From: Symploca sp. SIO1C2
GTDB lineage: Bacteria > Cyanobacteriota > Cyanobacteriia > Cyanobacteriales > Coleofasciculaceae
Assembly: GCA_010672925.1 (NCBI GenBank)
Contig: JAAHFP010000033.1
Coordinates: 1-64,000 of the forward strand
Direction: 5' to 3'
Length of the DNA stretch: 64,000 nucleotides
Part shown: positions 2,001 through 57,001 of the stretch, piece after piece
How positions within the stretch are numbered: the stretch's first letter is position 1
How the letters are laid out: the number at the start of each line of letters is the position of its first letter
Program-made: the position numbers and the translations under genes
The notes under the pieces: model-generated
What the model was told of the DNA's origin: nothing
What the model saw: only the letters and a program-made list of their open reading frames with translations
Database searches by the model: none

Positions 2001-2064
2001 AGGCAAAAGGCAGGAGGCAGGAGGCAGAAGGCAGAAGGCAGGAGGCAGGAGGGAAGAAAGAAGG
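2001..2064. repeat. STRR tract, GGCAGAAGGCAGGA units
   Basis: Tandem AGGCAGGAGGCAGAAGGC-like units between the glycosyltransferase and lnt. The same motif recurs inside lnt (2.90-2.95 kb), in the GT39-like gene (14.29 kb) and, as its complement, in a tract at 11.17-11.26 kb. Confidence 0.85.
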
Positions 2065-2138: not shown

Positions 2139-3956
2139 ATGAGTAAAACTCAAGTTACAAGCGCTTTGTTTTCCCCTCTGATACTGCTGCCTTTAATCGG
2201 CGGCATTCTGATGGGTTTGACACCTTCACCAGTAGAAGCTTGGCCCTTAGCATGGATTGCCCTAGTTCCCCTTTGGTTTCTCCTTGGTGTGGGGAGATGG
2301 GGAGATGGGGAGACGGGGAGATGGGGGGACGCGGGGACGCGGGGACGCGGAGATGAGAAGCTCAATTCTCAATTCGACCTTCTCAATTCGACCTTCTCAA
2401 TTCCTCAATCTGCTTTATACGGTTTAATCTGGGGTATTGGTTACCATGGGCTAGCACTATTTTGGATTACTGGCATTCACCCCATGGACTGGATGGGAGT
2501 ACCCTGGCTTGCTAGTATTGCGATCGCTCTTTTCTGCTGGACTTTCATTACTCTTTGGGGAGCTTTCCTTGTAGCTATTTGGGCAGCAGGAATGGCGTTT
2601 TTCCAGAAAGCAACATTCTTAGCCAAAGAAACCGAAAGAGCTAGTTTGTTATCTGCCTTAGTTCGCGTCTTGATTGGTACAGCTTTGTGGTGTGGCTTAG
2701 AAACTATTTGGACTGCTAGCCCTCTGTGGTGGACTTCCCTATCTTATACTCAAAGTCCCCACAATTTACTGATTTTACACCTTGGTCAACTATCTGGTCC
2801 CACAACAATCACAGCAGCAATTGTTGCTGTCAATGGTTTACTAGCTGAGAGTATAGCAGTCACATTATATCAAGTTCGGGATAATAATTTGGTTGCAACA
2901 AGGCAGAAGGTTGCAACAAGGCAGAAGGCAGAGGGCAGAGGGCAGAAGGAAGAAGAGCTTTCTTCCCCTATATCCAATTCCCCATTCTCAATTCTCAATT
3001 CTCAATTCTCAATTCTCAATTCCCCATTCCCCATTTTCAATATCGCAATAGGACTATTAATACTCCTACACTTAATTGGTTTTGGACTCTACAGCCGCCC
3101 TTTAAGTCAACCAACTACTACAGCATTGAAGGTGGGGATTATTCAGGGCAACATTCCTAATGAAATTAAACTTTACTCAGAAGGTTGGCGTCGTGCCCTC
3201 AGAAATTATACTACCGGCTACGAAGCCTTGGCAGAAGAGGGAGTTGAAGCTGTGCTGACTCCGGAGGTAGCACTGCCTTTTCTGTGGGATGAGGTTCAAA
3301 ACAGCAGTCCCTTCTATTCAGCTATCTTAGACAAAGGTGTTCTGGCTTGGGTAGGAGCGCTTGGCAAACAAGGAGGTAATTTTACCAACAGTTTGTTTAC
3401 TGTTACTGGTACTGGAAAAACTGTTAGCCGCTTCAATAAAGTTAAATTAGTACCCTTAGGAGAATATATTCCCTTTGAACAGGTTGTCGGCAGTTTAGTT
3501 GATAGACTTTCCCCCCTCAATGCTCATCTAGTAGCTGGTAAGCCAACTCAGATAATGGAGACGCCATTTGGTAGAGCAATTGTTGGTATCTGTTATGAGT
3601 CAGCTTTCACCTACCACTTCCAGCGTCAGGCTGCAGCTGGTGGGCAATTTATCTTAACAGCCTCTAATAATGCTCATTACAGCGAAACTATGCCAGCCCA
3701 GCACCATGCCCAGGATGTAATACGGGCAGTGGAAACAGACAGGTGGGCAGTACGTGCTACCAACACTGGCTATTCTGGTATTGTAGACCCTCATGGTAGA
3801 ACCCGATGGTTATCCGGGATTAATACCTATGAAATTCATGCAGACACGATTTATCGAAGGCAGACAAAGACTTTATATGTGCGTTGGGGAGATTGGTTGA
3901 CACCAATATTGTTGGGATTGGCTCTCATCAGTTGGTTGATTGTTAATCGTAGATAA
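2139..3956 (+). CDS. lnt: Apolipoprotein N-acyltransferase, with two repeat-derived insertions
   Basis: Transfers a third acyl chain to the N-terminal cysteine of lipoproteins in the inner membrane. The N-terminal half has several hydrophobic membrane segments; the C-terminal half is a nitrilase-fold domain. The catalytic triad is visible as the Glu in LTPEVALPF (about residue 374), the Lys in FNKVKLVPLGEY (about 436) and the Cys in VGICYESAF (about 486). The length of 605 residues exceeds the usual roughly 500-540. The excess is two hydrophilic insertions that are translated intergenic repeats. One is at residues about 50-95 (GRWGDGETGRWGD, then [12 protein letters not shown]). The other is at about 248-305 (VATRQKVATRQK, then FSILNSQFSILN). 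Both stay in frame and sit between membrane segments or before the nitrilase domain, so the enzyme may still work. Confidence 0.93.
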   Translation: MSKTQVTSALFSPLILLPLIGGILMGLTPSPVEAWPLAWIALVPLWFLLGVGRWGDGETGRWGDAGTRGRGDEKLNSQFDLLNSTFSIPQSALYGLIWGIGYHGLALFWITGIHPMDWMGVPWLASIAIALFCWTFITLWGAFLVAIWAAGMAFFQKATFLAKETERASLLSALVRVLIGTALWCGLETIWTASPLWWTSLSYTQSPHNLLILHLGQLSGPTTITAAIVAVNGLLAESIAVTLYQVRDNNLVATRQKVATRQKAEGRGQKEEELSSPISNSPFSILNSQFSILNSPFPIFNIAIGLLILLHLIGFGLYSRPLSQPTTTALKVGIIQGNIPNEIKLYSEGWRRALRNYTTGYEALAEEGVEAVLTPEVALPFLWDEVQNSSPFYSAILDKGVLAWVGALGKQGGNFTNSLFTVTGTGKTVSRFNKVKLVPLGEYIPFEQVVGSLVDRLSPLNAHLVAGKPTQIMETPFGRAIVGICYESAFTYHFQRQAAAGGQFILTASNNAHYSETMPAQHHAQDVIRAVETDRWAVRATNTGYSGIVDPHGRTRWLSGINTYEIHADTIYRRQTKTLYVRWGDWLTPILLGLALISWLIVNRR

Positions 3957-13200: not shown

Positions 13201-13281
13201 GATGGATCACCTCTGAGCATGGTATTTATGGATGATAACTCAAATTCAGTAGATGGAGAACTTTTGTTCGTGCGGCCTCCA

Positions 13282-13357
13282 GTTCCCCTCCTGGGAGGGG
13301 TTAGGGGTGGGCTTGCCTCGATTTCCCCTCCTGGGAGGGGCTAGGGGTGGGTTTGCC
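13282..13357. repeat. Tandem pair of the CCCCTCCTGGGAGGGG palindromic repeat
   Basis: Two adjacent copies of TTCCCCTCCTGGGAGGGG followed by YTAGGGGTGGG. Single copies of this dispersed element appear near 11141, 35726 (inverted) and 51573. It can fold into a GC-rich hairpin. It lies between the divergent alcohol dehydrogenase and glycosyltransferase genes. Confidence 0.85.
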
Positions 13358-13361
13358 TCCT

Positions 13362-13472: not shown

Positions 13473-15068
13473 TTGATATCAAAAGCTTTCCAGTTCATCC
13501 TACTCCCACTAGTGGCCCTCCTACTGCTGCGACTAGTATTTTGGTTTGCGACTTTCCCGAATCCCGACGAAGCCTACTACTGGCTGTGGGGACAGCATCC
13601 AGCATTTTCTTATTATGATCATCCCCCTCTGCAAGCTTGGGTTCAGGGTCTTGGTACTGCGGTTTTCGGACGCTCTGCTTTTACCTTACGGCTTCCCAAC
13701 CTGATCAGCAATGGGGTTTTCTTCTACACTTACTATCAGATTACCCGCTATCTTTATGGAGAGAAGGACAGATACTCTTTCTGGTTAGTAATGACACTGG
13801 TGTTGACATCACCGTTGTACTTCCTATTTCTCGCCTTAGCTTGGCATGACCATCTTTTGATTACTTTGTCGTTAGTCTCAGCCTACCTATTTATTAGGTT
13901 TCTGGATGCTTACCTAAGGGATGGCAAGGGTCAAAACTGGCGGCTTTATGGAGCAGCAGTAACTATCGGCTTAGCTGGATTGTGCAAATATACGGCAGTG
14001 TTTGTTGCACTGGGATTTGCTGCTACTGTGGTATGTGACCAACGACTGCGCCCTTTGCTACGCGATCGCAGAATTTATTTGGCAGGAGCGATCGCTACTA
14101 GTGCTATTCTCCCTATTGTACTGTGGAACTATACTAACGACTTCCAATCATTTCGCTACTACTTTGACCGGAGTATCAATACTAGTGGTTTTCGTTTCCA
14201 GTTTGCTGAACCGCTGAAATTCTTCCTCTTCTCGGTGCTGATGCTCTCTCCCGTTAATTGTTGGGCAATCTTTCAGGTACTTAAAAGAAGGCAGAAGGTA
14301 GAAGTCAGTCCTAATGAAGAAATTTTTACCACTACTAACGAAAACCCATATTTCCCCGTCCCCGCGTCCCCCCGTCTCCCTGTCTCTTCCGCCTCAGTTT
14401 ACCAAACAGTAGCCCTGTGGGTATTTGCCATTTCAAGCATAACCCTCACAGCTATTTCTTTGGTTTACACAGCCCTCTATTACTGGAACATTTTGGCCTA
14501 TCTGCTGCTATTTCCCCTGTTACCAACCCTCTTTATTAAAAATCAACAGGGAGCAGGAAATGCTTCTCCTCTCCGACGAAAATCACTGCTGTTAACAGGT
14601 CAAATCTACGGTTTACTATTTGCTGCTTTATTGGTAGTTAACTATAGCATACTTCCCTTAGCTAGCCTAGGGAGTAAAGATGCAGATCCTGAATCCCGTA
14701 TGTTGTTTGGCTGGAAAGATGTAGCAGCCGCAGTCCGCCAGGAAGCAGCACAATTAGGTAATGAACCGTTACTGGTAACCACAGATTATCGCTCTGCCTC
14801 TGCACTGGCCTATCAGTTGCAAAATCCTCATGTGATTGCCATTGCCGACAGAATTGATCAGTTCGACTTTTGGTATAATGAAGGTGATTTTCCCAGTAAA
14901 GATGCCCTAATTTTAGCAGACGATTGGCATCCAATTACACCAGAACTACTATCCCGATTTCAGCAAACCTCAGCACCAATTACTGTTCCTGTTACTCGAT
15001 TTGGGGTATGGATTAAGGATTACTATGTAGTGCTAAGTGTTATAGCAAAAGGCAGAGGGCAGGAATAA
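13473..15068 (+). CDS. GT39/ArnT-like membrane glycosyltransferase
   Basis: A 531-residue polytopic membrane protein of the dolichyl-phosphate-mannose mannosyltransferase/ArnT superfamily (PMT_2). The N-terminal loop FPNPDEAYYWLWGQHPA carries the acidic D-E motif typical of the catalytic periplasmic loop, followed by YYDHPPLQAW and many membrane segments. Such enzymes move a sugar from a polyprenyl-phosphate donor onto lipid or protein. Acceptor unknown. The start is a TTG at 13473; I see no ATG that would retain the N-terminal membrane segment. A hydrophilic stretch near residues 270-310 (RRQKVEVSPNEE, then PVPASPRLPVS) looks repeat-derived (CCCCGTCCCCGCGTCC). Confidence 0.87.
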   Translation: MISKAFQFILLPLVALLLLRLVFWFATFPNPDEAYYWLWGQHPAFSYYDHPPLQAWVQGLGTAVFGRSAFTLRLPNLISNGVFFYTYYQITRYLYGEKDRYSFWLVMTLVLTSPLYFLFLALAWHDHLLITLSLVSAYLFIRFLDAYLRDGKGQNWRLYGAAVTIGLAGLCKYTAVFVALGFAATVVCDQRLRPLLRDRRIYLAGAIATSAILPIVLWNYTNDFQSFRYYFDRSINTSGFRFQFAEPLKFFLFSVLMLSPVNCWAIFQVLKRRQKVEVSPNEEIFTTTNENPYFPVPASPRLPVSSASVYQTVALWVFAISSITLTAISLVYTALYYWNILAYLLLFPLLPTLFIKNQQGAGNASPLRRKSLLLTGQIYGLLFAALLVVNYSILPLASLGSKDADPESRMLFGWKDVAAAVRQEAAQLGNEPLLVTTDYRSASALAYQLQNPHVIAIADRIDQFDFWYNEGDFPSKDALILADDWHPITPELLSRFQQTSAPITVPVTRFGVWIKDYYVVLSVIAKGRGQE

Positions 15069-15878: not shown

Positions 15879-17027
15879 TTATGTTCTTATCCATCTCTCA
15901 TCATACTCTGGTTGTTTTACTTTATCCTTTTCTGTCCTAGGAAAAAGCGCACCAGAGTCTTTATCAGTATATGATTCCTCTAACGATACGGGCTGGGGGT
16001 TATTTGTTGCTTCTGACAATGGTACGAAGTTCACTGATGGCTCTTGGTCATTAGGCTTATAAGTATCCTCGAATAAGTTGAACCGTACTTCGTCATTAAT
16101 ATCAACGTCAGACCCTATTGAGACCCCTGCTGAATTTTTTGGTAGAAGTTCAGGAAGAGGTATTTTTGAGGCATCATTTTCTTCCACCTCGTCATTTGAC
16201 TTGTCCAGCGACTCTTGTTCTGATTTTGTCCCAGCACTAAAAAATAACAGCAGCTCTTCTAGTGCTTTTAAATCATCATTTGATTTGTCCAGCGACTCTT
16301 GTTCTGATTCTGTCTCAGCAGCATCATCTTCAGTAGCAGACTCTCCCAGGGGAAGCTCATTATTTCCTTCCAACTTGTCCAGCGGCTCTTGTTCTGATGG
16401 GTGAGCGACATTTTGGGTAAGATTTCCATTCTCCGCGTCTCCTAACTCGTTTCCCCACTCTTTTTTTCGCTCACCCTGTTCTGATTCTTTCTCAGCACCA
16501 TTATCTTCAGTATTAGCATTTAACTGCTTCCGCTGATTTGTTAGTTCTTCTATCTCAATACTATTATTTTGAATAGTTTGAACAACTGTATTGTTATCTC
16601 CCTCTATCTGAGAAAAATTTACATTCAACTCATCAGCAATTTTATTGATATATACAACAACTTTCGGATAATCCCCCTGCCGAGTTTTTATTACTATCTG
16701 GTTAGTAACTTCTTTACATCTTTCAGAACGATCAACATAGTCATATATCAATTTCGCCACCTGTTTTAATTTGTCCGGTTCACTTAAGTCCAATGAAAGT
16801 ACATTAGATAATGATTCTTTACCAAGAGAACCTGACAACTCATTTCGTTCTTGAGTTAAATCGTTCTGCCAAATCTTTACTTCTTCTCTAGTAGCAGCAT
16901 CTGATGAACTTTTAATTGGCATCAAAAGCGACGTAGCGTACCACACACCTATAATGAGATCTAACATAAGTAAATGCCCTAACCTTATATAAATCCTAAG
17001 ATAGCAACCATAAACTAATAGCAGCAT
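15879..17027 (-). CDS. Low-complexity acidic protein with N-terminal membrane segment, unknown function
   Basis: A 382-residue protein with a hydrophobic N-terminus (to about residue 36), a helical region, and a long acidic tail. The tail contains a partly repeated segment with SEQESLDKSND (about residues 238-275) and an earlier SEQEPLDK. Residues about 180-205 read GERKKEWGNELGDAENGNLT, almost the same as a segment of the OmpA-family protein at 41.6 kb and derived from a dispersed DNA repeat. The alternative start M21 at 16967 would keep only part of the hydrophobic segment. I cannot assign a function. The protein-level repeats indicate expansion by repeat insertion or slippage. Confidence 0.65.
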   Translation of the reverse strand: MLLLVYGCYLRIYIRLGHLLMLDLIIGVWYATSLLMPIKSSSDAATREEVKIWQNDLTQERNELSGSLGKESLSNVLSLDLSEPDKLKQVAKLIYDYVDRSERCKEVTNQIVIKTRQGDYPKVVVYINKIADELNVNFSQIEGDNNTVVQTIQNNSIEIEELTNQRKQLNANTEDNGAEKESEQGERKKEWGNELGDAENGNLTQNVAHPSEQEPLDKLEGNNELPLGESATEDDAAETESEQESLDKSNDDLKALEELLLFFSAGTKSEQESLDKSNDEVEENDASKIPLPELLPKNSAGVSIGSDVDINDEVRFNLFEDTYKPNDQEPSVNFVPLSEATNNPQPVSLEESYTDKDSGALFPRTEKDKVKQPEYDERWIRT

Positions 17028-17924: not shown

Positions 17925-17979
17925 CTTGGTGAATTTTGCTGCAATGCCCGTCCTATAACTCGAAGAGAGTGAGAAGTTT

Positions 17980-18114
17980 ATGAACGAAACACCTTTTGAG
18001 CACCCATCAAACTCTGAAGATGAGCTTTTGCCAGAGTATCAGTTTGATTATAAAAAGGCAAAGCCTAACCGATTTGCCCATCGTTTAAACTCCTTATCTT
18101 GTCCTCCCCCTTGA
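17980..18114 (+). pseudogene. Truncated small antitoxin-like protein (QFDYKKAKPNRFA motif)
   Basis: A 44-codon frame starting ATG at 17980 encodes an acidic N-terminus and PEYQFDYKKAKPNRFAHRL, a motif found in small cyanobacterial proteins that precede toxin genes (family usually about 70-90 residues, from memory). The frame ends in a CCTCCCCCTTGATAAGGGGG palindromic repeat that supplies the stop, so the gene seems cut by repeat insertion. No matching toxin follows. Confidence 0.5.
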
Positions 18115-20301: not shown

Positions 20302-20500
20302 GGTGGATGACTTTAGCGCTGATAGCTGTTCAATAATTGATAATGAACAATGGATAATTGATAATGGGATTATTCTACCAAGAGCAGATGGATTGAAGCA
20401 ATTTTTTCATTAACAGGCGTCTGCAGAAGGCAACAGGCAAGAATTTCCTGTCTTCCCAATTCGACCTTCTCAATTCGACCTTCTCAATTCGACCTTCCCC
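20302..20500. repeat. STRR tract CAATTCGACCTTCT at the end of the S9 peptidase
   Basis: The gap between recQ and the S9 peptidase carries ATTGATAATGAACAATGG-type repeats (about 20334-20365) and three CAATTCGACCTTCT units at about 20457-20500. The stop codon of the peptidase gene (20470) lies inside the last tract. Confidence 0.75.
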
Positions 20501-22446
20501 TCCGCTGCTTCAAAACCAAAAATCTGGGAGTAGAAGTAAAACTCCTCATCCAAAGTACGCTTGATATTCTCAGCACGACGGAAACCATGTCCCTCCCCTT
20601 CATAGGCAACATAGGCTACTGTCAATCCCTTCGCTTTCAAAGCTTCCACCATCATTTCCGCTTGATTAGGTGGTACAATTTTATCCTCTAGTCCTTGGAA
20701 GAAAATCACCGGACAAGAGAGTTGATCAGCAAAATGAATAGGCGATCGCGCTTCATAAAGATCCTTTCGTTCTGGGTAAACTCCAATCAAGCCATCAAAG
20801 TAGCGGGATTCAAATTTATGGGTATCTTTGACTAAAGCTTCTAAATCACTAATACCGTAGTGACTAGATCCTGCTTTAAATACATCTCGGAAAGTTAGAG
20901 CTGCTAAGGTAGTATAACCTCCCGCACTACTACCCGCGATCGCTAAACGCTCTCCATCAACTAATCCCTGCTCTACCAGATACTTAGCACCATTAACGCA
21001 GTCATCAACATCAACAATTCCCCACTTCCCTTGAAGTCGTTCTCGATATTCCCTACCATAGCCGGTGCTACCACCATAGTTAACATCCAGGAAAGCAAAG
21101 CCGCGACTAGTCCAGTATTGAATTTTCAAACTAAATGTACCAGAAGTTGCTCCTGTTGGTCCACCGTGACTTTTAACTATTAGGGGTGGTTTTTCCCCAG
21201 TCGGTGCTTGATAGTCTTGGTTTTGGGGAGGGTAGAAAAAGCCATAGGCGGTGAGTCCCTCTTCTGTCGGAAAAGCGATCTCTTGGGGTGTGGAGATATA
21301 TCCTGGACTAATCTCCAACTCCGCTGACTTTCGCAGCACTGTTATTTCCCCTGTCCCTACATTCACCTGTACTACTGCATTAGGTTCTGTTGCTGAACCA
21401 GCGATAAATACGGCTCGACCCCTGGTAACTTGAAGCGAAGCAATACTAGTGTAAGGTGTCTCGATTATCTCTAGTTGTTTGGATTGGAGATTGATACTGG
21501 CTAGATAGGAAATACCATCCTGGCTGTAAGTACAAATGAGGCGATTTTCTGACTCAAAGCCATAAGTAGACATACCAAACACCCATTGGGGAAGTCCAAA
21601 CTCTGCTGCCATTTCCCACAAGGGCTCAACTCCTCCACCATTGGGTTGCCAGCGGTAGAGATTCCACCAGCCAGTACGGTCTGACACAAAGTATAGTACT
21701 CCAGTTGGTGACCACTGTGGTTGAAAAATCGATTCATCAACTCCACCCGCCACTAATTGAGCTTCTCCCAGGGTGCCATCTTCCTGAATGTCAGCAACCC
21801 AGAGTTGAGTCCCATCCCAAGGCATATTGGGATGATTCCAGCTTAGCCATGCTAGTTGAGAATTATCAGGACTTAGACAGGGGGAAGAGTAGAAGTCACT
21901 ACCACAGGCTATTACCTGCACCTTGCCAACATCTAATTCTCGACTTTCTAGGGACAAGACAATGCTAACCAAACTGTTGACTGGTTCCCTACTGTCATCA
22001 GAATAGTCTTCTCTTACACAAATTAAGCGTCCCCTAAGAGAATCAATTATCCCATCTGCGTAACATGCTTTCGCTTCTAGCGTTAGCGGTTGAGGTTCAG
22101 AACCAGGATTTTGTTGATAGAGACGTTGGTCAGCAGAATTAGAGAAGTAAACTTTACCCTGTTTCACCGCAACAGCACCGCCCCCATACTCATGAACCCT
22201 AGTACGAGCATTGAAGGGAGCTGGAATCATATCAGTTAGCTTACCATCTGACGTCCGTTGTAAAATAACATTACGTCCTGCCTCTGCTGGTCTTCCCTCA
22301 ATCCAGTAAGTATCATCGCCATCTAGGACAACACTTCCCATCCTAATTGCACCAGCAACAATTAAATCAGAAGTAATCGGAGATTTCCAGGAACCATAAG
22401 CAATTTGTTGTTTGTTGTTTGTTGTGTGTTGTTTGTTATTGGTCAT
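20470..22446 (-). CDS. S9-family prolyl oligopeptidase-like peptidase
   Basis: A 658-residue serine peptidase with an N-terminal beta-propeller-like region and a C-terminal alpha/beta-hydrolase domain. The catalytic Ser is in [11 protein letters not shown] (about residue 505), the Asp in [12 protein letters not shown] (about 585) and the His in [13 protein letters not shown] (about 620). It is likely a cytoplasmic dipeptidyl-peptidase or acylaminoacyl-peptidase type enzyme. The first 14 residues ([14 protein letters not shown]) are a translated AACAAACAACA-type STRR, so the true start is uncertain; the conserved part begins at IAYGSWKSP. The C-terminus also runs into an STRR tract. Confidence 0.9.
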
Positions 22447-22578
22447 TTGTTATTGGTTGTTGGTTGTTGGTTGTTGGTTGTTGGTTGTTTGTTATTGGTC
22501 ATTTGTCAATTCCCTACTTCTCCATTCGACCTTCTCCGTTTTCCATTCGACCTTCTCCATTCGACCTTCTCCATTCCT
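22400..22578. repeat. STRR tracts (TTGTTTGTTG, TTGGTTG, CCATTCGACCTTCT)
   Basis: Consecutive short repeat blocks between the S9 peptidase and the GNAT gene. The TTGTTTGTTG block covers the first codons of the peptidase, and the CCATTCGACCTTCT block ends at the stop codon of the GNAT gene. Confidence 0.8.
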
Positions 22579-23684: not shown

Positions 23685-24184
23685 TTGTTGTTAGCAATAC
23701 TTCGCCCATTACCAACCTAGCTGCGGTGGGAAAGTTGTTGATACTGCAACAACTCTACAGTAGTATCGTCATTCCCGGAGCTGTTTTTCGAGAATTAACA
23801 GAAGTGGAGTATCCTGTTCCAGGAACAGAAGAAGTCCAAACTTGCGATTGGATCATAACTCAACAGGTGGCTAACCCAGCCCTCGTTACTTCCCTCAAGC
23901 AAGAGTTAGATGCCGGGGAAGCCGAAGCGATCGCACTTGCCCTAGAATTAAAAGCAGATTTGCTTTTGCTTGATGAACGTCGAGGCTATCAAGCTGCTTC
24001 TAGTCTGGGATTGACAGTGCAGGGTTTGCTCGGTGTTTTACTGGCTGCTAAATCGAGAGGTTGGATTCCGACTGTAAAACCTATTATGGATGATTTAATT
24101 GGTAGAGCGGGCTTTTGGGTCTCTCAAGCTCTTTACTCTCGTATTCTAGAACTAGCTGGTGAATCTTCTGCTGATTTAACCTAA
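23681..24184 (+). CDS. DUF3368 PIN-like toxin
   Basis: A 167-residue protein opening MIVVSNTSPITNLAAVGKL. The PIN-like acidic residues are in the central LDAGEAEAIALALELKADLL and LLDERRGYQAA parts. It starts with GTG overlapping the antitoxin stop, so translation is coupled. The family is a presumed RNase toxin paired with UPF0175. A MITE-like element follows directly downstream. Confidence 0.88.
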   Translation: MIVVSNTSPITNLAAVGKLLILQQLYSSIVIPGAVFRELTEVEYPVPGTEEVQTCDWIITQQVANPALVTSLKQELDAGEAEAIALALELKADLLLLDERRGYQAASSLGLTVQGLLGVLLAAKSRGWIPTVKPIMDDLIGRAGFWVSQALYSRILELAGESSADLT

Positions 24185-24200
24185 CACCTAATACCCATTG

Positions 24201-24375
24201 GTGACAAGTTAAGGAAAAAGTGTCGTTGTCAAGGGAATGGAGAATGGAGAATGGAGAAGGTCGAATTGGGAATATAGATTTTTTTGCTCTTTGGCTTTTC
24301 CTTATATAGTGTTTTTTGAGTTATCAAACACTACATATGGTACTTGACAAAACGCACGACCTTTTAACTTGTCAC
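24201..24375. mobile_element. MITE-like element, 175 bp, with terminal inverted repeats and apparent 5-bp target duplication
   Basis: Ends with perfect 12-base inverted repeats GTGACAAGTTAA...TTAACTTGTCAC, with partial pairing continuing inwards (GTCGTTGTCAA against TTGACAAAACGCACGAC). It is flanked on both sides by CATTG (24196-24200 and 24376-24380), as expected for a target-site duplication. It encodes no protein. An STRR block of GGAGAATGGAGAATGG lies inside it. Confidence 0.72.
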
Positions 24376-24429
24376 CATTGCCTAATACCTACCACCTACA
24401 ACCTACAATTTACCTGCACTAGATGAATC

Positions 24430-38990: not shown

Positions 38991-41849
38991 TTATTTATTT
39001 TTAGTGGGTATAAACGGTTCAAAGATGACACACCTGTGCAACTCCATTGACTGTGAGTTATCCCAACCAGGAGGAGGTTCGGTTGTTCCTGAAATGTCTT
39101 GTAGTCTCTCAGGAGCAATACCCTGCTGGATCAGGATGTCTTGTACTGTTTTAGCACGCTTTTTGGCTAAAGACCGGTCTACATCCAGGGGACGCAAGTC
39201 GCTAGGGTCACTATAACCTGTTAATCTCAGATGAACTTTGGGATACTGCTCAAGGAATTCCTGAATCTTGGGAAGTTTCTGGGATAACTCTGCTGGTTTT
39301 AATTCAGCTGAATCCACTTTGAAGTAGAGCCTGGTCTCAATTTTTGGTAAGTTGATCTTGGTATTGTTGTTGACCGACTTGACTCCCGGAATCTCCTCAA
39401 ATGTCTGGGTAAGATCTGGAGAATCTCCCTCAGCAATAATTACATTGCCCTCCAGGGTTACTACCCCATCTACATACTTTGCCGAAATATCAACCCCCTC
39501 GATTTGGTTCAGGTTATAGGCGACTCGTTCTACCTCTTCTACTGCCAATACTGGATCCGGAGGCAAATCGAGAACTACAATATGATTATCTACTTCCAAG
39601 GCGGGAGCTATTTCCTTGGCAATTTTTTCTACTTTCCGACTCATATACCCATTTGGTACTCTTCCTCCTAGCTTCATGGTCTTTTGATTAGCATCAACTT
39701 TCAGTTGATAAACAGATACTTCTGGAGCAGAATAGGCGAGAGCAAGTTCAATATCCGACTCCAGGTTGCGGTTAATACCTCGTTTGTGCCAATAAATGCC
39801 CAAGGGTACGCATAATAAGGCAAAAGCAGCTAAGGCGCTGGCGAGGAAAGCAACTGGTAGTTTCTTCTTCTCCTCTAATCGTTCGTAAATTAAACTTTCT
39901 ACTAGGGAATGTACCTGAGGAGGAATAGTTTCAGGATCCCCCTCAAAGGATTTAATTTCTTCACCATAATTTTCAATAATTTTTCTCAGGGTATCCCGGA
40001 TTTTCTGGATTAACAGCTGTGGTGGTTCTCCATCAACTACCACTGCCATGTAACAGTATCCTGCTGCTTCTAAAATAATCCTGGAAGTACCATAATAGAT
40101 TTCGTCAAGTTCTGAGAGATTGCCTGAGTTAGCCATACAGTCACTAGCAAAGCTGCGGATAGCAGTTAGCATACCGGCCACCATATCTGACTCTAGCTTT
40201 TCCCCCTCTGAGGGTTGTATGTCTGAAATTACCAAACCAGAGCCTTTATGAACTAAGAAAATGGCTCTAATAAGGGAGTGCATCGTCTCCTTCAGGAGCA
40301 ACTCTGCCTCAGAAACTCCCCGCACCTTGGCGCGAACCTTGCGAGATACAGCATCTACACTGAATGCATGTTCAATTTGTTCGTTAATCGCCCGGAGTTC
40401 CGAACCGATATAGGAAGAAATTGTACTGCCAATCACAGGATAGAGAGCATCCACCATGGCATCTCTTTCTAGGAGAACTTGCTCTCTGATAGCTTCTGCC
40501 ATTTCTGGTGCAAGGGAATTGGCAATTTCCTTAGGAGATTTACTAACCTGTTGGGAAATGGCGATGGGAATTGCTGCTGCCAGAGCTTCTCCCATTGCTA
40601 CTCTATTCTTGGAAGTATTTTGCTCAATTAGCTCATCAATCCGCTCATAAATTTTTTGCTCAAGTGCTCTAAGTCTCGGTTCAAGTTTTTCTGGATGTAC
40701 TAATTTCTCGAGGAGTCTCATTATCTCCTCCAAATCATCAGTAGGCAAATCCTCAGCTGGAGTTTCCTGCTCCTGAACTACTAGAGTTGAGTTGTCAGCT
40801 TCTTGCTTAGCTGGCTCACTAGTTTCAGCTTCTTGCTTAGTTGGCTCAGTGGTTTCAGCTTTTTCAATCTGCTGTAGCGTAGTTTTGGGTTCTTGGTTAT
40901 TTAGGAAAGCTAAAGAGTTTTCCTGTTGATTAGTATTAGTTAAGTATAGTGTGGAGGTATACTTCAACAGACTCCTTACCTCTGGAGTAATCTTGGAATT
41001 CTGTTTGGTAAAGGTAGCTTTACCTGAGGAAGTAAGGGACTGACTCTTGAGCTTGGTTGTTTGTTCTGGGCTATCAGTTGGCGACGGCTTTCCTAAATGT
41101 GGAGAACCATTATTAGCTTCATTCCCTCCCTTTCCATTGTTTTGAGCTGCTACTGAAATGTTTTCATCCTGTGGGATGATGGCTTCAGAGCTTGGTTGCT
41201 CTGGGGAATTAGCTGAGTCTAGCTCCCGTAGTAACTTCAACAGCTTCTGGGCTTCACGGTCTGGTAGTTGTAAATCTTGCTTACTATCTTCCTCTGAAGC
41301 AGGAAGGGACTGACTCCTAAGTCTGGTTACCGGTGCTTCTTGGCTATAGTCATCTGGCAGAGGAGTTTCTAAATGGTTAGGAGTATGATTAATCGAGTGA
41401 TCCAAATATGAAGTGGAATTTCCATTCTCCGAGTCCCCGTGTCCTTGTCTCCCCGCGTCTGAGGTGAGATTTCCATTCTCCGAGTCCCCGCTTTCCCAAA
41501 TATCCACGTCTGAGGTGAGATTTCCATTCTCCGAGTCCCCGTGTCCTTGTGTCTCCGAGTCTGAGGTGGAATTTCCATTCTCCGAGTCCCCAATTTCCCA
41601 AATATCCGGGTCTGCTGACTCGTTTTCCCACTCCTTTTTTCCCTCACCCTCCTGTTGCTGAGGCATATCTGTGCTGAATTGGTCTATAGAACTAGATTCT
41701 TGGAGGTCATCTTCTAGTGTAATTTGCCAATCATCTAGGGGTTCTTCTGCTTGGAGATTGAGCTCTCTTGACTTTAAATCAACACCCAACTGCTGCTCTA
41801 ACTCAGCCTGATTTTCCTTTGCCACAGTCATGACCCTAATCTCCGTCAC
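38991..41849 (-). CDS. OmpA-family membrane protein with roadblock-like and BON-like domains
   Basis: A 952-residue protein. Residues 1 to about 370 are a Glu/Asn/Ser-rich disordered region, including repeats of GDSENGNLTSD. Then comes a helical region, a roadblock/LC7-like segment (about 515-640: LIRAIFLVHKGSGLVISDIQ ... AAGYCYMAVVVDG), one membrane helix (about 667-690, LASALAAFALLCVPLGIYW), two BON-like repeats (about 705-835) and a C-terminal OmpA peptidoglycan-binding domain (about 845-945: RLTGYSDPSDLRPLDVDRSLA). The order predicts a cytoplasmic N-terminus with GTPase-regulator-like domain, and a periplasmic part bound to peptidoglycan. The roadblock call is by pattern only. It lies directly upstream of the GTPase gene. 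Confidence 0.85.
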   Translation of the reverse strand: MTEIRVMTVAKENQAELEQQLGVDLKSRELNLQAEEPLDDWQITLEDDLQESSSIDQFSTDMPQQQEGEGKKEWENESADPDIWEIGDSENGNSTSDSETQGHGDSENGNLTSDVDIWESGDSENGNLTSDAGRQGHGDSENGNSTSYLDHSINHTPNHLETPLPDDYSQEAPVTRLRSQSLPASEEDSKQDLQLPDREAQKLLKLLRELDSANSPEQPSSEAIIPQDENISVAAQNNGKGGNEANNGSPHLGKPSPTDSPEQTTKLKSQSLTSSGKATFTKQNSKITPEVRSLLKYTSTLYLTNTNQQENSLAFLNNQEPKTTLQQIEKAETTEPTKQEAETSEPAKQEADNSTLVVQEQETPAEDLPTDDLEEIMRLLEKLVHPEKLEPRLRALEQKIYERIDELIEQNTSKNRVAMGEALAAAIPIAISQQVSKSPKEIANSLAPEMAEAIREQVLLERDAMVDALYPVIGSTISSYIGSELRAINEQIEHAFSVDAVSRKVRAKVRGVSEAELLLKETMHSLIRAIFLVHKGSGLVISDIQPSEGEKLESDMVAGMLTAIRSFASDCMANSGNLSELDEIYYGTSRIILEAAGYCYMAVVVDGEPPQLLIQKIRDTLRKIIENYGEEIKSFEGDPETIPPQVHSLVESLIYERLEEKKKLPVAFLASALAAFALLCVPLGIYWHKRGINRNLESDIELALAYSAPEVSVYQLKVDANQKTMKLGGRVPNGYMSRKVEKIAKEIAPALEVDNHIVVLDLPPDPVLAVEEVERVAYNLNQIEGVDISAKYVDGVVTLEGNVIIAEGDSPDLTQTFEEIPGVKSVNNNTKINLPKIETRLYFKVDSAELKPAELSQKLPKIQEFLEQYPKVHLRLTGYSDPSDLRPLDVDRSLAKKRAKTVQDILIQQGIAPERLQDISGTTEPPPGWDNSQSMELHRCVIFEPFIPTKNK
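41400..41640. repeat. In-frame ~57-63-bp repeats inside the OmpA-family gene
   Basis: Four units of TTTCCATTCTCCGAGTCCCC with variable inserts, translated on the minus strand as GDSENGNLTSD. The unit resembles the dispersed STRR (ATTCTCC and CCCCGTGTCC) and ends at CCTTTTTTCCCTCACCC, the same kind of motif as at 200 and 16470. Confidence 0.85.
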
Positions 41850-43947: not shown

Positions 43948-44420
43948 GTTGTAGGGTCAAGGGGTCAAAAAAATTGAATTCCTCTTCCCGGGTGAACCAA
44001 ATTTTGGATGAGATTTCTTGAGCTTTGTATCCAAAAATTATTAGTTCTTCCTTCTCCCTCCGCTCCTCTGCTCCTCCGCCCCTCCTCACAAGGGTAGGTT
44101 TTTAATATTTAGGTGAAAATGAGACAAGGAAGGAAAGAAGGAAAGTAGACAAGGAGGATTTTGTACGAAAAACTGGGCTTTTTAACATCAACAATTTTGG
44201 CGAACCGAACAGGATTTTGTACGGTTTTACTCCCTTGTCACCTTGTCTTCCTTGTCCCCCTTGTCTTGTCCCAACCCGAAAGTAAAAAACCTACCCTTGT
44301 CAGCTCCGCCCCTCCGCCCCTCCGCTCCCCACCCTTTTTTTCTCTAACTCCCTATTCCCCAAAAACCAATAACTTCGTACCTCATCCCAAGGAAAAACGC
44401 TGTATTTTCCCCTTTTTTTT
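43948..44420. other. Gene-free gap with (CTCCGCCCC) and CCTTGTC repeats
   Basis: Holds short CTCCGCCCCTCCGCCCC and CCCTTGTCACCTTGTCTTCC repeats and duplicated ATTTTGTACG (44157 and 44214). An open frame at 44161-44424 translates repeat and shows no motif, so I do not call it a gene. Confidence 0.6.
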
Positions 44421-46842: not shown

Positions 46843-47035
46843 GCTTGGGGAGATGGGGGAGCTGAGGGAGCTGAGGGAGCTGGGGGAGCTGAGGGAGATG
46901 GGGAGCTGAGGGAGCTGGGGGAGCTGGGGAGATAGGGAGTTGAGGGAGATGGGGAAGATAAAGGATACATTCACTAATAACAAACAACAAACAACCAACA
47001 ACAAACAACCAACAACAAACAACCAACAACAAGCA
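46843..47035. repeat. STRR tracts GGAGCTGAGG and AACAAACAACC around the helicase start
   Basis: 46843-46955 is GGAGCTGAGGGAGCTGGGG-type, the complement of the CAGCTCCCC family. 46976-47033 is AACAAACAACCAACAAC-type. The second one is translated as [13 protein letters not shown] at the start of the helicase gene. Minus-strand frames across these tracts are hydrophobic repeats, not genes. Confidence 0.88.
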
Positions 47036-49270
47036 TTACAACAACTCCGCGATAGTTTGCGGCAGGGACAGCAAAGCATGGCAGACTGGCAGGGAGGACG
47101 GCTGGCAGTTTCTGCTGTACCTGGTGCGGGGAAGTCTACGGGAATGGCGGTAGCTGCTGCGATCGCGATCGCTCGTTACCAACTCCATGCTAAGCGTCAA
47201 TTAGTAGTAGTTACTTTTACCCGCTCTGCTGCTGCTAGTATCAAAGCCAAAATTCGTACTCATCTTAACTCCCTTTCCATACCACAAAATAGTTTTGTTG
47301 TCCATACCTTACATGGTTTAGCTCTCAATATCGCTAACCGTCATCCAGATTTATCAGGCATAAATCTGGAAAATGCCACGGTGGTGATCCCTCGTTCGAG
47401 TAACCGCTTAATTCGTTCTGCTGTAGAACAGTGGATTGCTCTCCATCCAGGTCGTTATTCTACCCTCTTGGAAGGACAAAGTTTTGATGGAGAAGAAACG
47501 GAACGACTTAGGCGACAGTCGGTGTTGCGGACTGAAGTATTACCAAAATTGGCTTATATTGTGATTCATGAAGCCAAGAGTTCTGGTTTAACCCCAGAAG
47601 ATTTGTGGAAACTCAATCAACAAACTAACGACCCTTATGAAACTTTAGCGATCGCAGCTGGCTTGTACGAACAATATCAAACTATTGCGCGATCGAGAAA
47701 CTTCATCGACTATGATGACATGATTCTGGCAGCCTTGAGAGTGTTGAACAATAATGCTATCCGTCAGATGTGGCAAAAGCAATACTTTGCTGTCTTTGAA
47801 GACGAAGCTCAGGATTCTACCCAACTTCAATACCGATTGTTGCAGACTCTGGCGACAGACCCAAGCAATCCCTCTGGCTCCCTCAACTTAATTAGGGTGG
47901 GTGACCCCAATCAAGCCATTAACTCTACTTTTACTCCTGCTGATCCAATTTATTTCAATCGCTTCTGCGAAGACTGTCAGACACAAGAGCGTCTGGCAAC
48001 AATGGATCAGGCTGGTCGTAGTACTACTATTATTATCGAAGCTGCCAACTTTATCCTGCACTGGGTTAATCACTCCAAGCTGACAGGGAAAGAACTTGCC
48101 TTTCGCTCCCAAAATATTCGTCGTGTCAATGCTGATGATCCCCAGCCAGATGCTAATCCTAGTCCTACGGGAAGGGGTTTAGAAATCTACAGTCCCCGGG
48201 ATATTTACCACACCGTCGAATTGATGGGCAAGCGGGTAGTAGAATTATTTGATCAAAGTCCCAAACATCGAGCAGCGGTACTAGTCAGGGAAAATCGGCA
48301 AGGTAGTTTTGTTGCTCAGCAATTAGAACATCTCCAGCGGCAGTATGGCATTGAAATCTATGATGTACAAGAAAGCGATCGCCAATCCCATGTTCCTCGG
48401 GAAATCCTGACCCTGCTCCATTTCTTAGATCTACCTCATTCTCCAGATTACCTCAAAGCTGCTCTAGTAGTCTTAGTAGAGCGTCAACTCATTCCTACCC
48501 AAGACCTCAATGCTTTGGCTACCTTTCCAGAACAGTTCCTCTATCCCGGACCTCTTGATCCACACCAAACCCCAGCAGTAACTAAAGCTGCTCGTTATTG
48601 TCGCAGTTTACTACGGGCTCGTCTAGAGTTACCTCACTATCAACTGATTTCTTTCCTAGCTCTTACCTTAAACTACAATCAATCTGAGTTAGCAACGGCG
48701 GATAAATTAGCAGAAAGGATTGCCAAACAGACTTTAGGCAACAGCTCCATGAATGCTACCCTAGGAGCACTCCAAGAAATCGTCAATTCGGAACGTTTTG
48801 AACCAGTAGAAACAGAAGATGCCGACTCTCGCTATCTTCGTGCTGGTCAACTTACAATTATTACCATGCACAAAGCTAAGGGACTCGACTGGGATTATGT
48901 CTTTATCCCCTTTTTGCACGAAGATACTTTACCTGGAAACCCTTGGGTTCCTACTGCTGGCCAATTCTTAGGTGACTTTACCTTAGCAGAAGTTGCCAGA
49001 GCCCAAATTCGCGCCAGTCTTCATGAGCAGACAATACCCCTAGCACCGGAAGCTTGGGAACAAGCAGGACAACTGAAGACAGCAGAGGAGTTTCGTCTCC
49101 TTTATGTCGCAATGACGAGGGCAAAACGTCTATTGTGGATATCTGCAGCGGAACAAGGGCCTTTCCGTTGGAGTACTTTTAGTGGTAAGGGAGATAACTT
49201 ACAACAGAAAAAACCTTGCCCAGTTTTGCCAGCTTTAAGGAATCATTTTCCTCAAGCGAATGTGAATTAA
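46940..49270 (+). CDS. UvrD/PcrA-like superfamily-1 DNA helicase
   Basis: A 776-residue SF1A helicase-like ATPase. Motif I is VSAVPGAGKSTGMAVA, motif II FAVFEDEAQDSTQ (DExQ), and the C-terminal part has TMHKAKGLDWDYVFIPF and LLYVAMTRAKRLLW, the UvrD/Rep motifs V and VI. Predicted to translocate on ssDNA in repair. The start is unclear: the frame opens with TTG at 46940 (ATG 46949) but the first about 35 residues are a translated STRR, and ATG 47078, with AGGGA about 9 bases before it, is a better-supported start. That one directly precedes the conserved MADWQGG segment. Confidence 0.88.
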   Translation: MREMGKIKDTFTNNKQQTTNNKQPTTNNQQQALQQLRDSLRQGQQSMADWQGGRLAVSAVPGAGKSTGMAVAAAIAIARYQLHAKRQLVVVTFTRSAAASIKAKIRTHLNSLSIPQNSFVVHTLHGLALNIANRHPDLSGINLENATVVIPRSSNRLIRSAVEQWIALHPGRYSTLLEGQSFDGEETERLRRQSVLRTEVLPKLAYIVIHEAKSSGLTPEDLWKLNQQTNDPYETLAIAAGLYEQYQTIARSRNFIDYDDMILAALRVLNNNAIRQMWQKQYFAVFEDEAQDSTQLQYRLLQTLATDPSNPSGSLNLIRVGDPNQAINSTFTPADPIYFNRFCEDCQTQERLATMDQAGRSTTIIIEAANFILHWVNHSKLTGKELAFRSQNIRRVNADDPQPDANPSPTGRGLEIYSPRDIYHTVELMGKRVVELFDQSPKHRAAVLVRENRQGSFVAQQLEHLQRQYGIEIYDVQESDRQSHVPREILTLLHFLDLPHSPDYLKAALVVLVERQLIPTQDLNALATFPEQFLYPGPLDPHQTPAVTKAARYCRSLLRARLELPHYQLISFLALTLNYNQSELATADKLAERIAKQTLGNSSMNATLGALQEIVNSERFEPVETEDADSRYLRAGQLTIITMHKAKGLDWDYVFIPFLHEDTLPGNPWVPTAGQFLGDFTLAEVARAQIRASLHEQTIPLAPEAWEQAGQLKTAEEFRLLYVAMTRAKRLLWISAAEQGPFRWSTFSGKGDNLQQKKPCPVLPALRNHFPQANVN

Positions 49271-49427: not shown

Positions 49428-50402
49428 TTACTCAGATTCTAAATCCATATCCATTGATAAATTCATATCCATGTTCATCTCTCGTCCACCGTTAGGTCCG
49501 GTAATCTTCATCTGTGTCTGAGACTTTAAGGAAATATTGCCAATTATTGGCATAATTTGATCCAGCTCAATCTCAATGTTAGCTTGACCCTCAGAATCTA
49601 AAGATTCCAGCTTGACGGACGCGCCAGGAGGCATTCCTGGTTGATTGATTGTCTGGGAAGGTGCATCCTGTGTGATGTTAACTGCTAAGGTAGCAACATC
49701 ATCCTGTAGACCAACCAATTCATAGATAGCTGTCTGATTGATAGTCATGCCATTGAGGTTGAGGGAGTGAGCAACCTGCCACTGGGCACCAATACCGATT
49801 GCTGCTGAGGGAAATGGTGAGGATAGTTGCTTTAGGGAACCAGATATTTGCTGAAACATTTGTTTCGTGTTGGGGTCAAGTCCCTCAGGCAAATCGAAGT
49901 TAACATCTTTTGTGTTGCCTTGAGCATCCATAACCAAGGAACCTTCCAAACCCACTAAACTTTGGAGTTTCGATTGCATGGCATTAACCAACTCTGGAGG
50001 AGTCTTAGAATCAGCGATGACATCCACCTCAGAATAGGAGAAATCAGCATAAATATCCCCGTTAGCATCAACTTGAGTAACTTGTGTCTCCATCTTCATC
50101 TCAATTGCTGGAGTATCCACAGTGGGGGGACTTTGACCTCCGATAGACATGCTAACGTCTACATCCATGGTCATGGTTAAAGTTTGCTGGGAATTGACCG
50201 CAGGGGTGAAGCGCATTTCCTGCCTAGGTTCAATTCCGGGATCAAGCAGTTCTAATGAGGCATTAACAGAAGTACTGGTAGACTGTTTGGTAAGTTGAGT
50301 AACTTCCAATGGCTGATCCGCATTGATATAGGTAGGCTCAGACTTCGCTTCAAATCCAGCAATAAAGAAAACAAGAGAGCTAACGAACAGTAGTTTTTTC
50401 AT
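49428..50402 (-). CDS. Predicted secreted protein, DUF6263-like
   Basis: A 324-residue protein if started at ATG 50402, which gives a standard signal peptide (MKKLLFVSSLVFFIAGFEAK). The frame is open further, to 50648, but that extension is a translation of a dispersed 77-bp repeat and STRR and is unlikely to be protein. The mature part is beta-rich with Met-rich strands (LTMTMDVDVSMSIGG, MQSKLQSLVGLEGSLVMD, MNMDMNLSMDMDLES), a pattern that looks like the DUF6263 group. No catalytic motif. Located in the periplasm or outer envelope by inference. It is convergent with the helicase gene. Confidence 0.75.
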   Translation of the reverse strand: MKKLLFVSSLVFFIAGFEAKSEPTYINADQPLEVTQLTKQSTSTSVNASLELLDPGIEPRQEMRFTPAVNSQQTLTMTMDVDVSMSIGGQSPPTVDTPAIEMKMETQVTQVDANGDIYADFSYSEVDVIADSKTPPELVNAMQSKLQSLVGLEGSLVMDAQGNTKDVNFDLPEGLDPNTKQMFQQISGSLKQLSSPFPSAAIGIGAQWQVAHSLNLNGMTINQTAIYELVGLQDDVATLAVNITQDAPSQTINQPGMPPGASVKLESLDSEGQANIEIELDQIMPIIGNISLKSQTQMKITGPNGGREMNMDMNLSMDMDLESE

Positions 50403-50491
50403 AGAACCAATATTTTTTCTTTTTAATTTCCCCGCTGTACGGAGATGGGGAGATGGGGAGATGAGGAGATAGGGAAAAAATCTATATCTAC

Positions 50492-50570
50492 TCATTACTC
50501 TTGAGAAACTAGAAATAAAAACAGGATGGTTAAATCCTTTGATATGACTAGTTTTTAACTTTTTTTTAGG
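50492..50570. repeat. Dispersed ~77-bp repeat, copy 2
   Basis: Begins CTCATTACTCTTGAGAAACT, then AGAAATAAAAACAGGATGG, and ends GATATGACTAGTTTTTAACT. Same order of blocks as 13362-13437. It lies upstream of the secreted-protein gene's preferred start. Confidence 0.7.
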
Positions 50571-53383: not shown

Positions 53384-56300
53384 ATGTATGATATTGTCTG
53401 GCTCCTAGCTTGTGCTGGTTTGGTCTTCCTGATGCAACCGGGCTTTATGTGTTTGGAGTCAGGGCTAACTCGCTCAAAAAACAGCATCAATGTTGCTGTT
53501 AAAAACTTGGCGGATGTTGGTATTTCCGTAATTTTATTTTGGGCATTTGGTTATGCTCTGATGTTTGGGGCATCTTGGGTTGGATGGATTGGCACCAAAG
53601 GTTTCTTTATTGATCTCGATGCTGACCCCAAGCTAGCGGCTTTCTTTATTTTTGAAGCGATGTTTTGCGGTACTGCTACTACTATTATCTCAGGAGCAGT
53701 AGCAGAACGATTGCGCTTCAGTTGTTACTTGCTCATTGCCCTATTAGTTTCCGGTATTATTTATCCTATTTTTGGTCATTGGGCTTGGAATGGCGCTGAG
53801 ACAGGGAGCTTTACTGGCTGGTTGGGGAAGCTGGGCTTCGTTGATTTTGCTGGTTCGGCAGTGGTGCACTGTATTGGGGGTTGGGTTGCTTTAGCAGCCT
53901 TGTTGGTTATTGGACCCCGTACTGGTAGATTTACGAGTAATGGGCGAGCACAAAAAATCCACGGCTCTAATATGCCCTTTTCTGTCCTAGGGGTGATGCT
54001 GTTGTGGTTGGGTTGGTTGGGGTTTAATGGTGGTAGTACCCTAGCCTTAAATGAACAAATTCCTGGGATTATTGTCCATACCATCCTTGCTGGTGCTGGT
54101 GGCATGTTAACTACCGTAGCAATCGGTTGGTTCCAACGCAAACTACCAGAGGTAGAATTATTAATTAACGGCTCAATTGCTGGATTGGTATCAATTACTG
54201 CCTCTTGCCATGCGGTAAAAACTCCAGAATCCTTACTGATTGGTGCTATTGGTGGAGCAGTAATGCTCTTTGCTAACTATTGGATCGAACGTTGGCGCAT
54301 TGATGATGGAGTAGATGCGGTAGCGATTCACGGAGTTGCAGGGGTTTGGGGCATCTTGGCCGTGGCTTGGTTTGGAGACCCAGAGATACTAGGAACCGGT
54401 TTGAGTCGGCATAGCCAGCTGTTAGTGCAACTATTGGGAATTATCGTTGCTTTTGTTTGGGCTTTTGGTTTAACTTACCTAGTGCTGTCGATTACCAATC
54501 GCTTCTTTCCCCTGCGGGTTTCTCTTGAAGATGAAGAAATGGGTCTGAATGTTTCCCAACATCGAGCGAAAACGGAAGTTTATCAACTGTTTCAAGTAAT
54601 GGATAAGCAGGCAGAAACCAGGGATTTTAGCTTGCGAGTGCCGGAGGAGCCATTTACTGAGGTAGGAAAAATAGCTCACCGTTACAATCAGGTAATGGAC
54701 TCTTTAGAAGAGTACGCCAATCAACTACAAGAATTCAATGCTACTCTAGAGCGAACAGTTGAACAACGAACAGCAGAACTTGCGGAAGCCAATGCAGAGT
54801 TACAACGTTTAGATCGACTCAAAGATGAGTTTCTTGCTAATACTTCCCACGAATTAAGAACTCCCCTCAACGGTATTATCGGTATTGCTGAATCTCTGGT
54901 TGATGGTGTTACCGGTTCTCTATCTCCCCAAACTTGTTCTAATTTAAACCTGATTGTTTCTAGTGGCAGGCGTTTATCCAATCTAGTAAATGATATTCTA
55001 GATTTTTCCAAAATGTTCCACAAGAATATTGAGCTACAACTCAAACCAGTGGGACTGCGAGAAATTGTTGAAGTAGTACTTAAGCTTAGCCAACCGCTGA
55101 TTGGTTATAAAGAATTACAACTAATTAATGGAATTCCTGATTACCTTCCTCCAGCTAATGCTGACGAAAATCGCTTACAGCAAATTCTCTACAACCTAAT
55201 TGGTAATGCGATTAAGTTTACTAAATCTGGCACTGTCGAAATTTCAGCAGTAGTTGTGGAATTGGGAGGGGGGGATGAGGAGACACAGGAACGCGGGGAC
55301 GCGGGGAAGCCGAGACAAGAGAGATCAGAAGACGAGGGAGACATTCCCAATTCCCAATTTCCAATTCCCAATTCCCAATTCCCAAACAACCAACAACAAA
55401 CAACAAATAACCAACAACAATTAGCTATTTCCGTTTATGATACTGGTATCGGTATTCCAGAAGAGAATTTAGACCGCATTTTTGAATCCTTTGAACAAGC
55501 TGATGGTTCTACTGCCCGTGAATATGGTGGTACTGGCTTGGGTTTAGCAGTAACCAGAAAGCTAGTTGAGCTTCACGGAGGAGAAATTAAGGTTGAGTCT
55601 ACTGTAGGGGAAGGTTCCTGCTTCAGTTTTACTTTACCTATGGCCACTAGTCAGCCGTCAGTTATTACCCCTCAATCGTCACAATTATCATTAGTTAGTC
55701 CGCAGACTTCAATCCCAACAACGATAGATAACGGACTGCAAACTAATAACAAACAACTAATAAGCAATAACCAACAACTAATAACTAACAACCAAGAACC
55801 AACAAGTCATCAATTCAAGGTTTTGATTGTGGATGATGAACCAGTAAATTTACAGGTGTTAGTGAATCATCTGTCTCTAGAAAATTATGCGATCGCGCGA
55901 GCAATCAATGGCATGGAAGCACTGGAGTTAATTGAGAATGGCTTTCAACCTGACTTACTGTTACTCGATGTGATGATGCCAAAAATGACTGGCTATGAAG
56001 TCTGTCACAAGATTCGGGAGAAATTTCCGGCTACGGAATTACCGGTTTTGATGTTAACTGCAAAAAACCGAGTTTCGGATGTTGTGGAAGGATTGACTGC
56101 TGGTGCTAATGATTATCTGAGTAAACCGGTTTCTAAAAAAGAACTACTAGCCAGAATTAAAACTCAGTTGCAACTGTCTCAAATCAATGCTGCCTACGGT
56201 CGTTTTGTGCCTCGTCAATTTCTCCAATTATTGCAAAAAGAAAGTATTCTAGATGTTCAACTAGGGGATAATGTACAGCAGGAAATGTCAGTGCTGTTTT

Positions 56301-57001
56301 CTGATATTCGCTCCTTTACGACCCTATCAGAAAGGATGACACCCCAGGAAAATTTCCAATTTATCAATTCCTTTCTTTCTCGTATGGAGCCTGCCATTAT
56401 CGACAATCGTGGCTTTATTGATAAATACATCGGTGATGCGATTATGGCACTGTTTAGTGGAGGGGCTGACGATGCTGTCAAAGCTGGGATTGCGATGTTG
56501 CATCAGCTAGCTGAATACAATCAACATCGCCTCCAATCAGGCTATCAACCGATTAAAGTAGGGATTGGCATCAATACAGGGGATTTGATGTTAGGTACAG
56601 TTGGTGGACAGTCTCGGATGGATGGTACTGTAATTAGCGATAATGTTAATATAGCCTCCCGGATTGAAGGGTTGACTAAAAAATATGGAGTTTCGATGCT
56701 CATCTCTCACCAAACTTTTAGCTCCTTAAAATATCCTAACGAATATGTTTTTCGCTTTATTGCTCAAGTCAGAATGAAAGGTAAGTCAGAATTGGTGAGT
56801 CTCTTTGAAGTCTTTGATGCTGATGATCCGAAAATTAAAGAGAAAAAAATGCTTACGAAAACCAATTTTGAGAAGGCTTGTTTGCTCTACTATCAGCGTC
56901 GTTTTAGTAAAGCCGCACAACTGTTTAAAGATGTATTGAATATTATACCAGAGGATAAAATCACTCAAATTTATCTGAAACGCTGTTCAGAACAATGTTA
57001 G
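53384..57001 (+). CDS. AmtB-like ammonium sensor/transporter fused to histidine kinase, receiver and class III cyclase
   Basis: A 1205-residue fusion. Residues 1 to about 375 form an Amt/Rh channel-like domain with many membrane helices ([15 protein letters not shown] at the start; twin-His positions in [11 protein letters not shown] and [12 protein letters not shown]). Then a linker-coiled coil (about 395-470), HisKA with phospho-His in [13 protein letters not shown] (about 487), and HATPase (N box IGNAIKFT, G1 YDTGIGIP, G2 GGTGLGLAV). A receiver follows with Asp in [10 protein letters not shown] (about 862) and SKPVS, then a class III cyclase with both metal Asp residues ([13 protein letters not shown] and [11 protein letters not shown]). 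Ammonium binding may drive phosphorelay and cAMP. Between N and G1 boxes a repeat-derived insertion ([17 protein letters not shown]) has been accepted in frame; a second lies before the receiver. Confidence 0.93.

Follow-up and report, generated by a model that had tools for sequence, protein, structure and literature searches.

Tandem repeats with 7-bp units, the STRRs, have been described in filamentous cyanobacteria (PMC2670836), and in Nostoc 7120 68% of the GGGGA(C/T)T repeats are intergenic, with the remainder intragenic (PMC4692102). Rickettsia palindromic elements (RPEs; Ogata 2000, 2002; reviewed in PMC10969869) are palindromic elements of ~150 nt with a conserved encoded peptide, and heptanucleotide contingency loci are exemplified by Haemophilus influenzae HMW1A (PMC8262952). 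A search of open-access papers found no report of in-frame STRR inserts in cyanobacterial proteins. The repeats described here, in a window of 64,000 nucleotides (on contig C173 of the 8.67-Mb, 245-contig genome of Symploca sp. SIO1C2), resemble STRRs in having tandem units of ~7 nt, multiple families, and numerous dispersed, mainly intergenic copies in a filamentous cyanobacterium. They go beyond the known STRRs in occupying loops of conserved enzymes in frame, in the conservation of the sites while their content turns over, and in forming polar composites that combine several unit families, 8- and 9-mers among them. Tandem repeats within an essential gene product have a counterpart in RNase P RNA, inside which STRRs reportedly lie, to go by the title of work by Vioque from 1997 that PMC2858038 cites; that product is an RNA, whereas the hosts here are proteins, obliged to keep their frame and avoid stops.

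Tandem arrays are abundant in this genome, with 717 found by TRF in 1.124 Mb (3.3% of the DNA) compared with 13 TRF rows in 660 kb of order-2 Markov control DNA, which rules out chance. The period is 7 in 429 of the 717 arrays. The share of DNA in arrays is 0.6% in a repeat-poor member of the family (G001) and 4.9% in Moorena bouillonii. The genome contains 172 copies of the string CAATTCTCAATTCTCAATTC and none of its reversed control, and the unit families that fill the intergenic gaps are those found in the two inserts of lnt.

The lnt gene is present as a single copy and encodes a 605-residue apolipoprotein N-acyltransferase (Lnt), the frame of which stays open across both inserts. The four repeat strings quoted for this gene in an earlier sequence-only reading of the window are all present, and TRF placed arrays at 2290-2355, 2366-2403, 2891-2955, and 2975-3041, with 7- and 8-nt units that are dispersed through the genome as tandem repeats. 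Insert 1 (approximately residues 50-90) lies in the cytosolic loop between TM2 and TM3 and insert 2 (approximately residues 250-301) in that between TM6 and TM7. The AlphaFold model has a mean pLDDT of 84, with values of ~50 in the inserts (51-59 for residues 51-80 and 49-53 for residues 271-290), and the inserts fold no better than shuffled sequences (z = -0.7 and +1.3). The sides of the loops were assigned by what we take to be the topology of the known enzymes, with the nitrilase domain outside, after TM7. Across 46 aligned cyanobacterial sequences three cytosolic loops are variable in length (S.D. 14-20 aa) and the periplasmic loops have an S.D. of 0-0.7; if the topology follows that of the known enzymes, every length-variable site of Lnt would be a cytosolic loop. 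Glu376, Lys434, and Cys485, which from established knowledge of Lnt and an alignment to 5n6m are presumably the catalytic triad, are invariant in 46/46 of these sequences. These conserved residues, together with the dN/dS of the flanks given below, argue against lnt being a broken gene.

The closest relatives compared were Symploca sp. SIO2E6 (G004) and Symploca sp. SIO2C1 (G005). At the insert 1 site of lnt, G004 is longer and different, G005 has the CAATTC module only, and the loops of other genera are short. The three congeners have insert 2 partly in common, and in Moorena its position is filled by the unrelated repeats LKVDR and NLQPSTPQ. A rearrangement was also observed in M. bouillonii PNG5-198 (G012:C1:1838000-1848000 and G012:C1:4666000-4676000, compared with G013), where the 3' part of lnt (~1.8 kb, beginning in a repeat insert after TM4) is absent from its original place at 1.84 Mb and present at 4.67 Mb, with ~90 bp of the repeat at both places. 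The gene is thus split at a repeat insert.

Table 1. Host genes, inserts, and arrays in the window
Feature	Position	Strand	Content	Basis or remark
Intergenic array immediately 5' of lnt	2001..2052	+	AGGCAGA array	TRF; family as in lnt insert 2
lnt, apolipoprotein N-acyltransferase, 605 aa	2139..3956	+	two repeat inserts	Pfam LNT_N and CN_hydrolase
lnt insert 1	2289..2405	+	(GGGGAGAT/GGGGACGC)n then (CAATTCT+CGACCTT)n	
lnt insert 2	2886..3041	+	(GGTTGCAACAAGGCAGAA)2-(AAGGCAG)n then (CAATTCT/CCCATT)n	
PMT_2/GT39-like glycosyltransferase	13473..15068	+	one insert	Pfam PMT_2
GT39-like insert	14298..14420	+	KRRQKVEVSPNEEIFTTTNENPYFPVPASPRLPV: AAGGCAG module, interspersed element, CCCCGTCC module	
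Acidic protein (ORF 15879-17027)	16416..16477	-	interspersed repeat	common with OmpA gene
S9 peptidase (20470-22446), last codons	20452..20497	-	CTTCTCAATTCGAC array	species-specific 14-nt unit common with lnt
S9 peptidase, N terminus	22404..22499	-	AACAAC-type array	
BON/OmpA-domain gene	38991..41849	-	repeats	Pfam
BON/OmpA in-frame unit	41418..41614	-	51/102-nt unit, GDSENGNLTSD...	partly related to G-rich repeats
UvrD-like helicase (46940-49270), N-terminal extension	46979..47032	+	AACAAAC array	
AmtB-histidine kinase-response regulator-cyclase fusion	53384..57001	+	inserts at two sites	Pfam, orthologues
AmtB-kinase composite insert	55260..55420	+	G-rich, then CAATTCC, then AACAAC modules	
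AmtB-kinase second insert	55741..55805	+		TRF, orthologue comparison

Most of the other hosts named in the sequence-only reading were borne out: repeats are present in the AmtB-kinase fusion (at two sites), the BON/OmpA gene, and the GT39-like gene (Table 1). The acidic protein has an interspersed repeat, found also at ~12 other places in 1.12 Mb, but no TRF array. The composite AmtB-kinase insert is absent from the orthologues of G005 and Symploca sp. SIO2E9 (G018), and is longer and different in G004. The AmtB insert examined for folding does better than shuffles (z = -3.1). The repeats of the BON/OmpA gene consist chiefly of the 51/102-nt higher-order unit, which is absent in G004 and G005. 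The GT39-like insert differs in the G005 orthologue, and a similar composite is found in another SIO1C2 ORF. The terminal arrays of the S9 peptidase and the UvrD-like helicase are additional to the genes named earlier. Elsewhere in the window, a palindromic interspersed repeat, CCCACCCCTAACCCCTCCAAGGAGGGGAA, is located at 13275-13360; it recurs at many loci, one 18-mer being found at 27 loci in 864 kb, and apparently reads in frame as PTPNPSQEGN within genes of SIO1C2 and G004.

The phenomenon extends beyond the genes of the earlier reading, being genome-wide and found in M. bouillonii as well. In the 1.124 Mb of SIO1C2, 36 of 497 repeat clusters are interior to an open frame and have coding sequence on either flank, these interior cases including VCBS-like repeats and other in-frame minisatellites as well as STRRs; with ~74% of the DNA called coding, this is an approximately tenfold depletion. 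Clear STRR hosts are PurL, MenC, PutA, NagA, an RND permease, a type I-D Cas3' helicase (~95 extra residues), a RuBisCO-activase-like protein, a nucleoside-recognition-domain membrane protein, and a histidine kinase. The PurL insert lands at a gap relative to the solved PurL chain 3viu. In 340 kb of M. bouillonii, 8 of 188 clusters are interior, again with non-STRR cases among them, and the unit families are its own. Genes were called from ORFs and codon usage, and candidate broken genes were judged by manual inspection; no convincing frame-broken gene was found, the three different-frame and four stop-containing candidates resembling junctions of neighboring genes.

The arrays admitted into genes differ from those outside in their stops and orientation. 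Since neither 7 nor 8 is divisible by 3, an array of at least three such units has every codon read whichever the frame, so that each strand of a perfect array has stops in every frame or in none. The commonest heptamer family, ATTTTAG, contains stops on both strands and is found in genes 0 times out of 36, whereas the other families have 68 runs in genes. Heptamers that are stop-free on both strands make up 22 of 25 in genes versus 107 of 318 elsewhere, a difference that arises partly by construction. Modules in genes are predominantly in the sense orientation (53 versus 15), compared with 70 versus 58, and thus no bias, between co-oriented genes (p = 0.002).

In further host genes of the window and elsewhere, the content of a given site is not the same in G004 and G005, and the site is short in G002, G018, or Symplocastrum torsivum (G019), most of the relatives being draft assemblies. 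The repeat family itself differs between congeners at the MenC, GT39-like, and PutA sites, and at the PurL site TNNQQ repeats are also present in another genus (G021). The sites are thus old and their content young, in that most were occupied before the split of the three Symploca-like species and have undergone turnover since. This is not merely a series of recent independent invasions, and the earlier reading needs to be amended to that extent. Purifying selection on the flanks of the host genes is strong (dN/dS of 0.08-0.24 versus the congeners), with the exception of G004 putA, the alignment of which extends into another gene. The dN of the inserts is several times that of the flanks, their dN/dS being rough, as the homology of the aligned insert parts is uncertain. 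Deviations from the unit consensus in the in-frame arrays are spread evenly over codon positions 1, 2, and 3 (26, 25, and 27; p = 0.95, from only 78 deviations), so that only the frame and the absence of stops are apparently constrained. The PutA frame of Symploca sp. SIO2E6 (G004:C832:2784-6185) continues through a long array into aldo/keto-reductase-like sequence, which is either a repeat-mediated gene fusion or a misassembly.

The modules within composites follow a fixed order, with the G-rich array preceding the CAATTC array in the same relative orientation in all 15 adjacent pairs, and other loci have composites similar to the lnt inserts. Moreover, a 14-nt unit, CAATTCGACCTTCT, is found at three loci (lnt, 20.45 kb, and contig C9), of which lnt and C9 have 41 identical nt in common, and is present in SIO1C2 alone of the 22 genomes (0/21 relatives). 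These observations favor copying between loci over independent slippage, and repeat material seems to have been copied from locus to locus, probably by gene conversion or template switching. The polarity of the modules could instead stem from a strand-specific mechanism without inter-locus copying.

Taken together, the inserts are probably in-frame copies of dispersed STRR-type composites, generated by copying or recombination together with slippage and filtered by selection, with a functional host protein retained. Arrays would copy or recombine with one another and so carry composites from locus to locus, copying or gene conversion being the likely route, and slippage would lengthen or shorten the composites. 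Entry into a gene would usually be harmful and eliminated by selection, the survivors being in-frame arrays in flexible loops or termini, with a stop-free strand as the one read. The peptide would subsequently drift without visible amino-acid constraint, presumably close to neutrality, while further modules may be joined or swapped at the same site in the fixed polar order, with no loss of host protein function. The inserts are presumably translated in the cell. The central claim of the sequence-only reading, that dispersed repeats have entered coding DNA in frame at tolerated sites, mostly as hydrophilic linkers, is thus supported.

Selection could alternatively maintain the insert peptides for their usefulness as flexible segments or in interactions; their predicted disorder, the sites common to the three congeners, and the TNNQQ repeats of PurL in G021 are consistent with this. 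It had been proposed that relatives with the same inserts at conserved positions, under selection on sequence, would argue for functional linkers; inserts are indeed found at these positions in relatives, but with no conservation of their sequence. Content, length, and even family vary among congeners, a codon-position bias is absent, the outgroups have short loops without inserts, and the same repeats are found in unrelated genes and as intergenic DNA. The high insert dN relative to the flanks, the differing families at one site, and the short outgroup loops do not indicate conserved functional linkers, which the turnover of content and the even codon-position changes likewise disfavor; such a role is quite improbable. 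Phase variation, in which in-frame heptamer arrays toggle genes by single-unit slippage, is very unlikely. Gain or loss of one heptamer shifts the frame, Haemophilus provides a known case of heptanucleotide phase variation (PMC8262952), and heptanucleotide arrays of varying copy number are common to both systems. However, ~22/23 orthologous host genes are open across the site in two congeners, no off-state copy was seen among the orthologues examined, the hosts are housekeeping genes (e.g. purL), and imperfect, composite arrays should damp slippage.

It is also unlikely that a small RPE- or MITE-like element, mobilized by a transposase, enters genes and leaves the tandem arrays as its degraded body. 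The fixed module order, the palindromic repeats such as CCCCTCCAAGGAGGGG that recur beside arrays, and the folding of the AmtB-kinase insert would fit such an element, but the lnt inserts show no comparable folding, and no constant ends were noticed at the sites compared, which included no clean recent empty site. Composites also vary in length and in the modules present, and the unit families differ between the Symploca-like species and Moorena. Folding and insert comparison did not support identity with RPEs or MITEs. The likeness to RPEs drawn in the earlier reading holds for behavior, in that small dispersed repeats stand in frame within unrelated protein genes, and fails for the DNA, which is tandem, composite, variable in length, and only partly hairpin-forming. 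No RPE-type conserved encoded peptide was found in the inserts, the content and length of which differ even at orthologous sites, and hence these are not RPEs. An artifact of assembly or binning at repeats is scarcely credible: the genome is a draft and the run-on of G004 putA into another gene may be a misjoin, but independent assemblies of three species concur on sites and frame, and an M. bouillonii assembly with an 8.26-Mb contig has the same kind of inserts.

Inserts arising from dispersed composites reveal how much apparently meaningless repeat peptide can be accommodated by functional enzymes, among them PurL and Lnt, which are single-copy, and they constitute a natural experiment in which intergenic repeats become protein sequence. 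They also allow one to ask whether short tandem repeats can move from locus to locus with no transposase involved. More tentatively, it is possible that polar composites are a transposase-free form of spreading DNA, propagated by array-to-array recombination or gene conversion, homogenized within species, and constantly rewriting the loops of essential proteins at an extrapolated ~200-300 coding sites in one genome. For alignment, modeling, and expression, multi-residue inserts in cyanobacterial proteins should be viewed with caution, as they may be repeat debris and not domains.

Three further observations were made. In rnpB of SIO1C2, about two copies of a GTCATTT-type repeat are found at a length-variable place, with a similar arrangement in G004. 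In the ORF of a DUF6263 protein (49428-50648, minus strand), both a GGAGATGG array and a repeat with a high copy number in the relatives overlap the N-terminal part (window 50441-50475 and 50489-50631). Stretches of ~140-230 bp at 44081-44303, 51316-51502, 24179-24405, and 17945-18083 recur at many places in G004 and G005 (~75-94% identity) and are possibly MITE-like.
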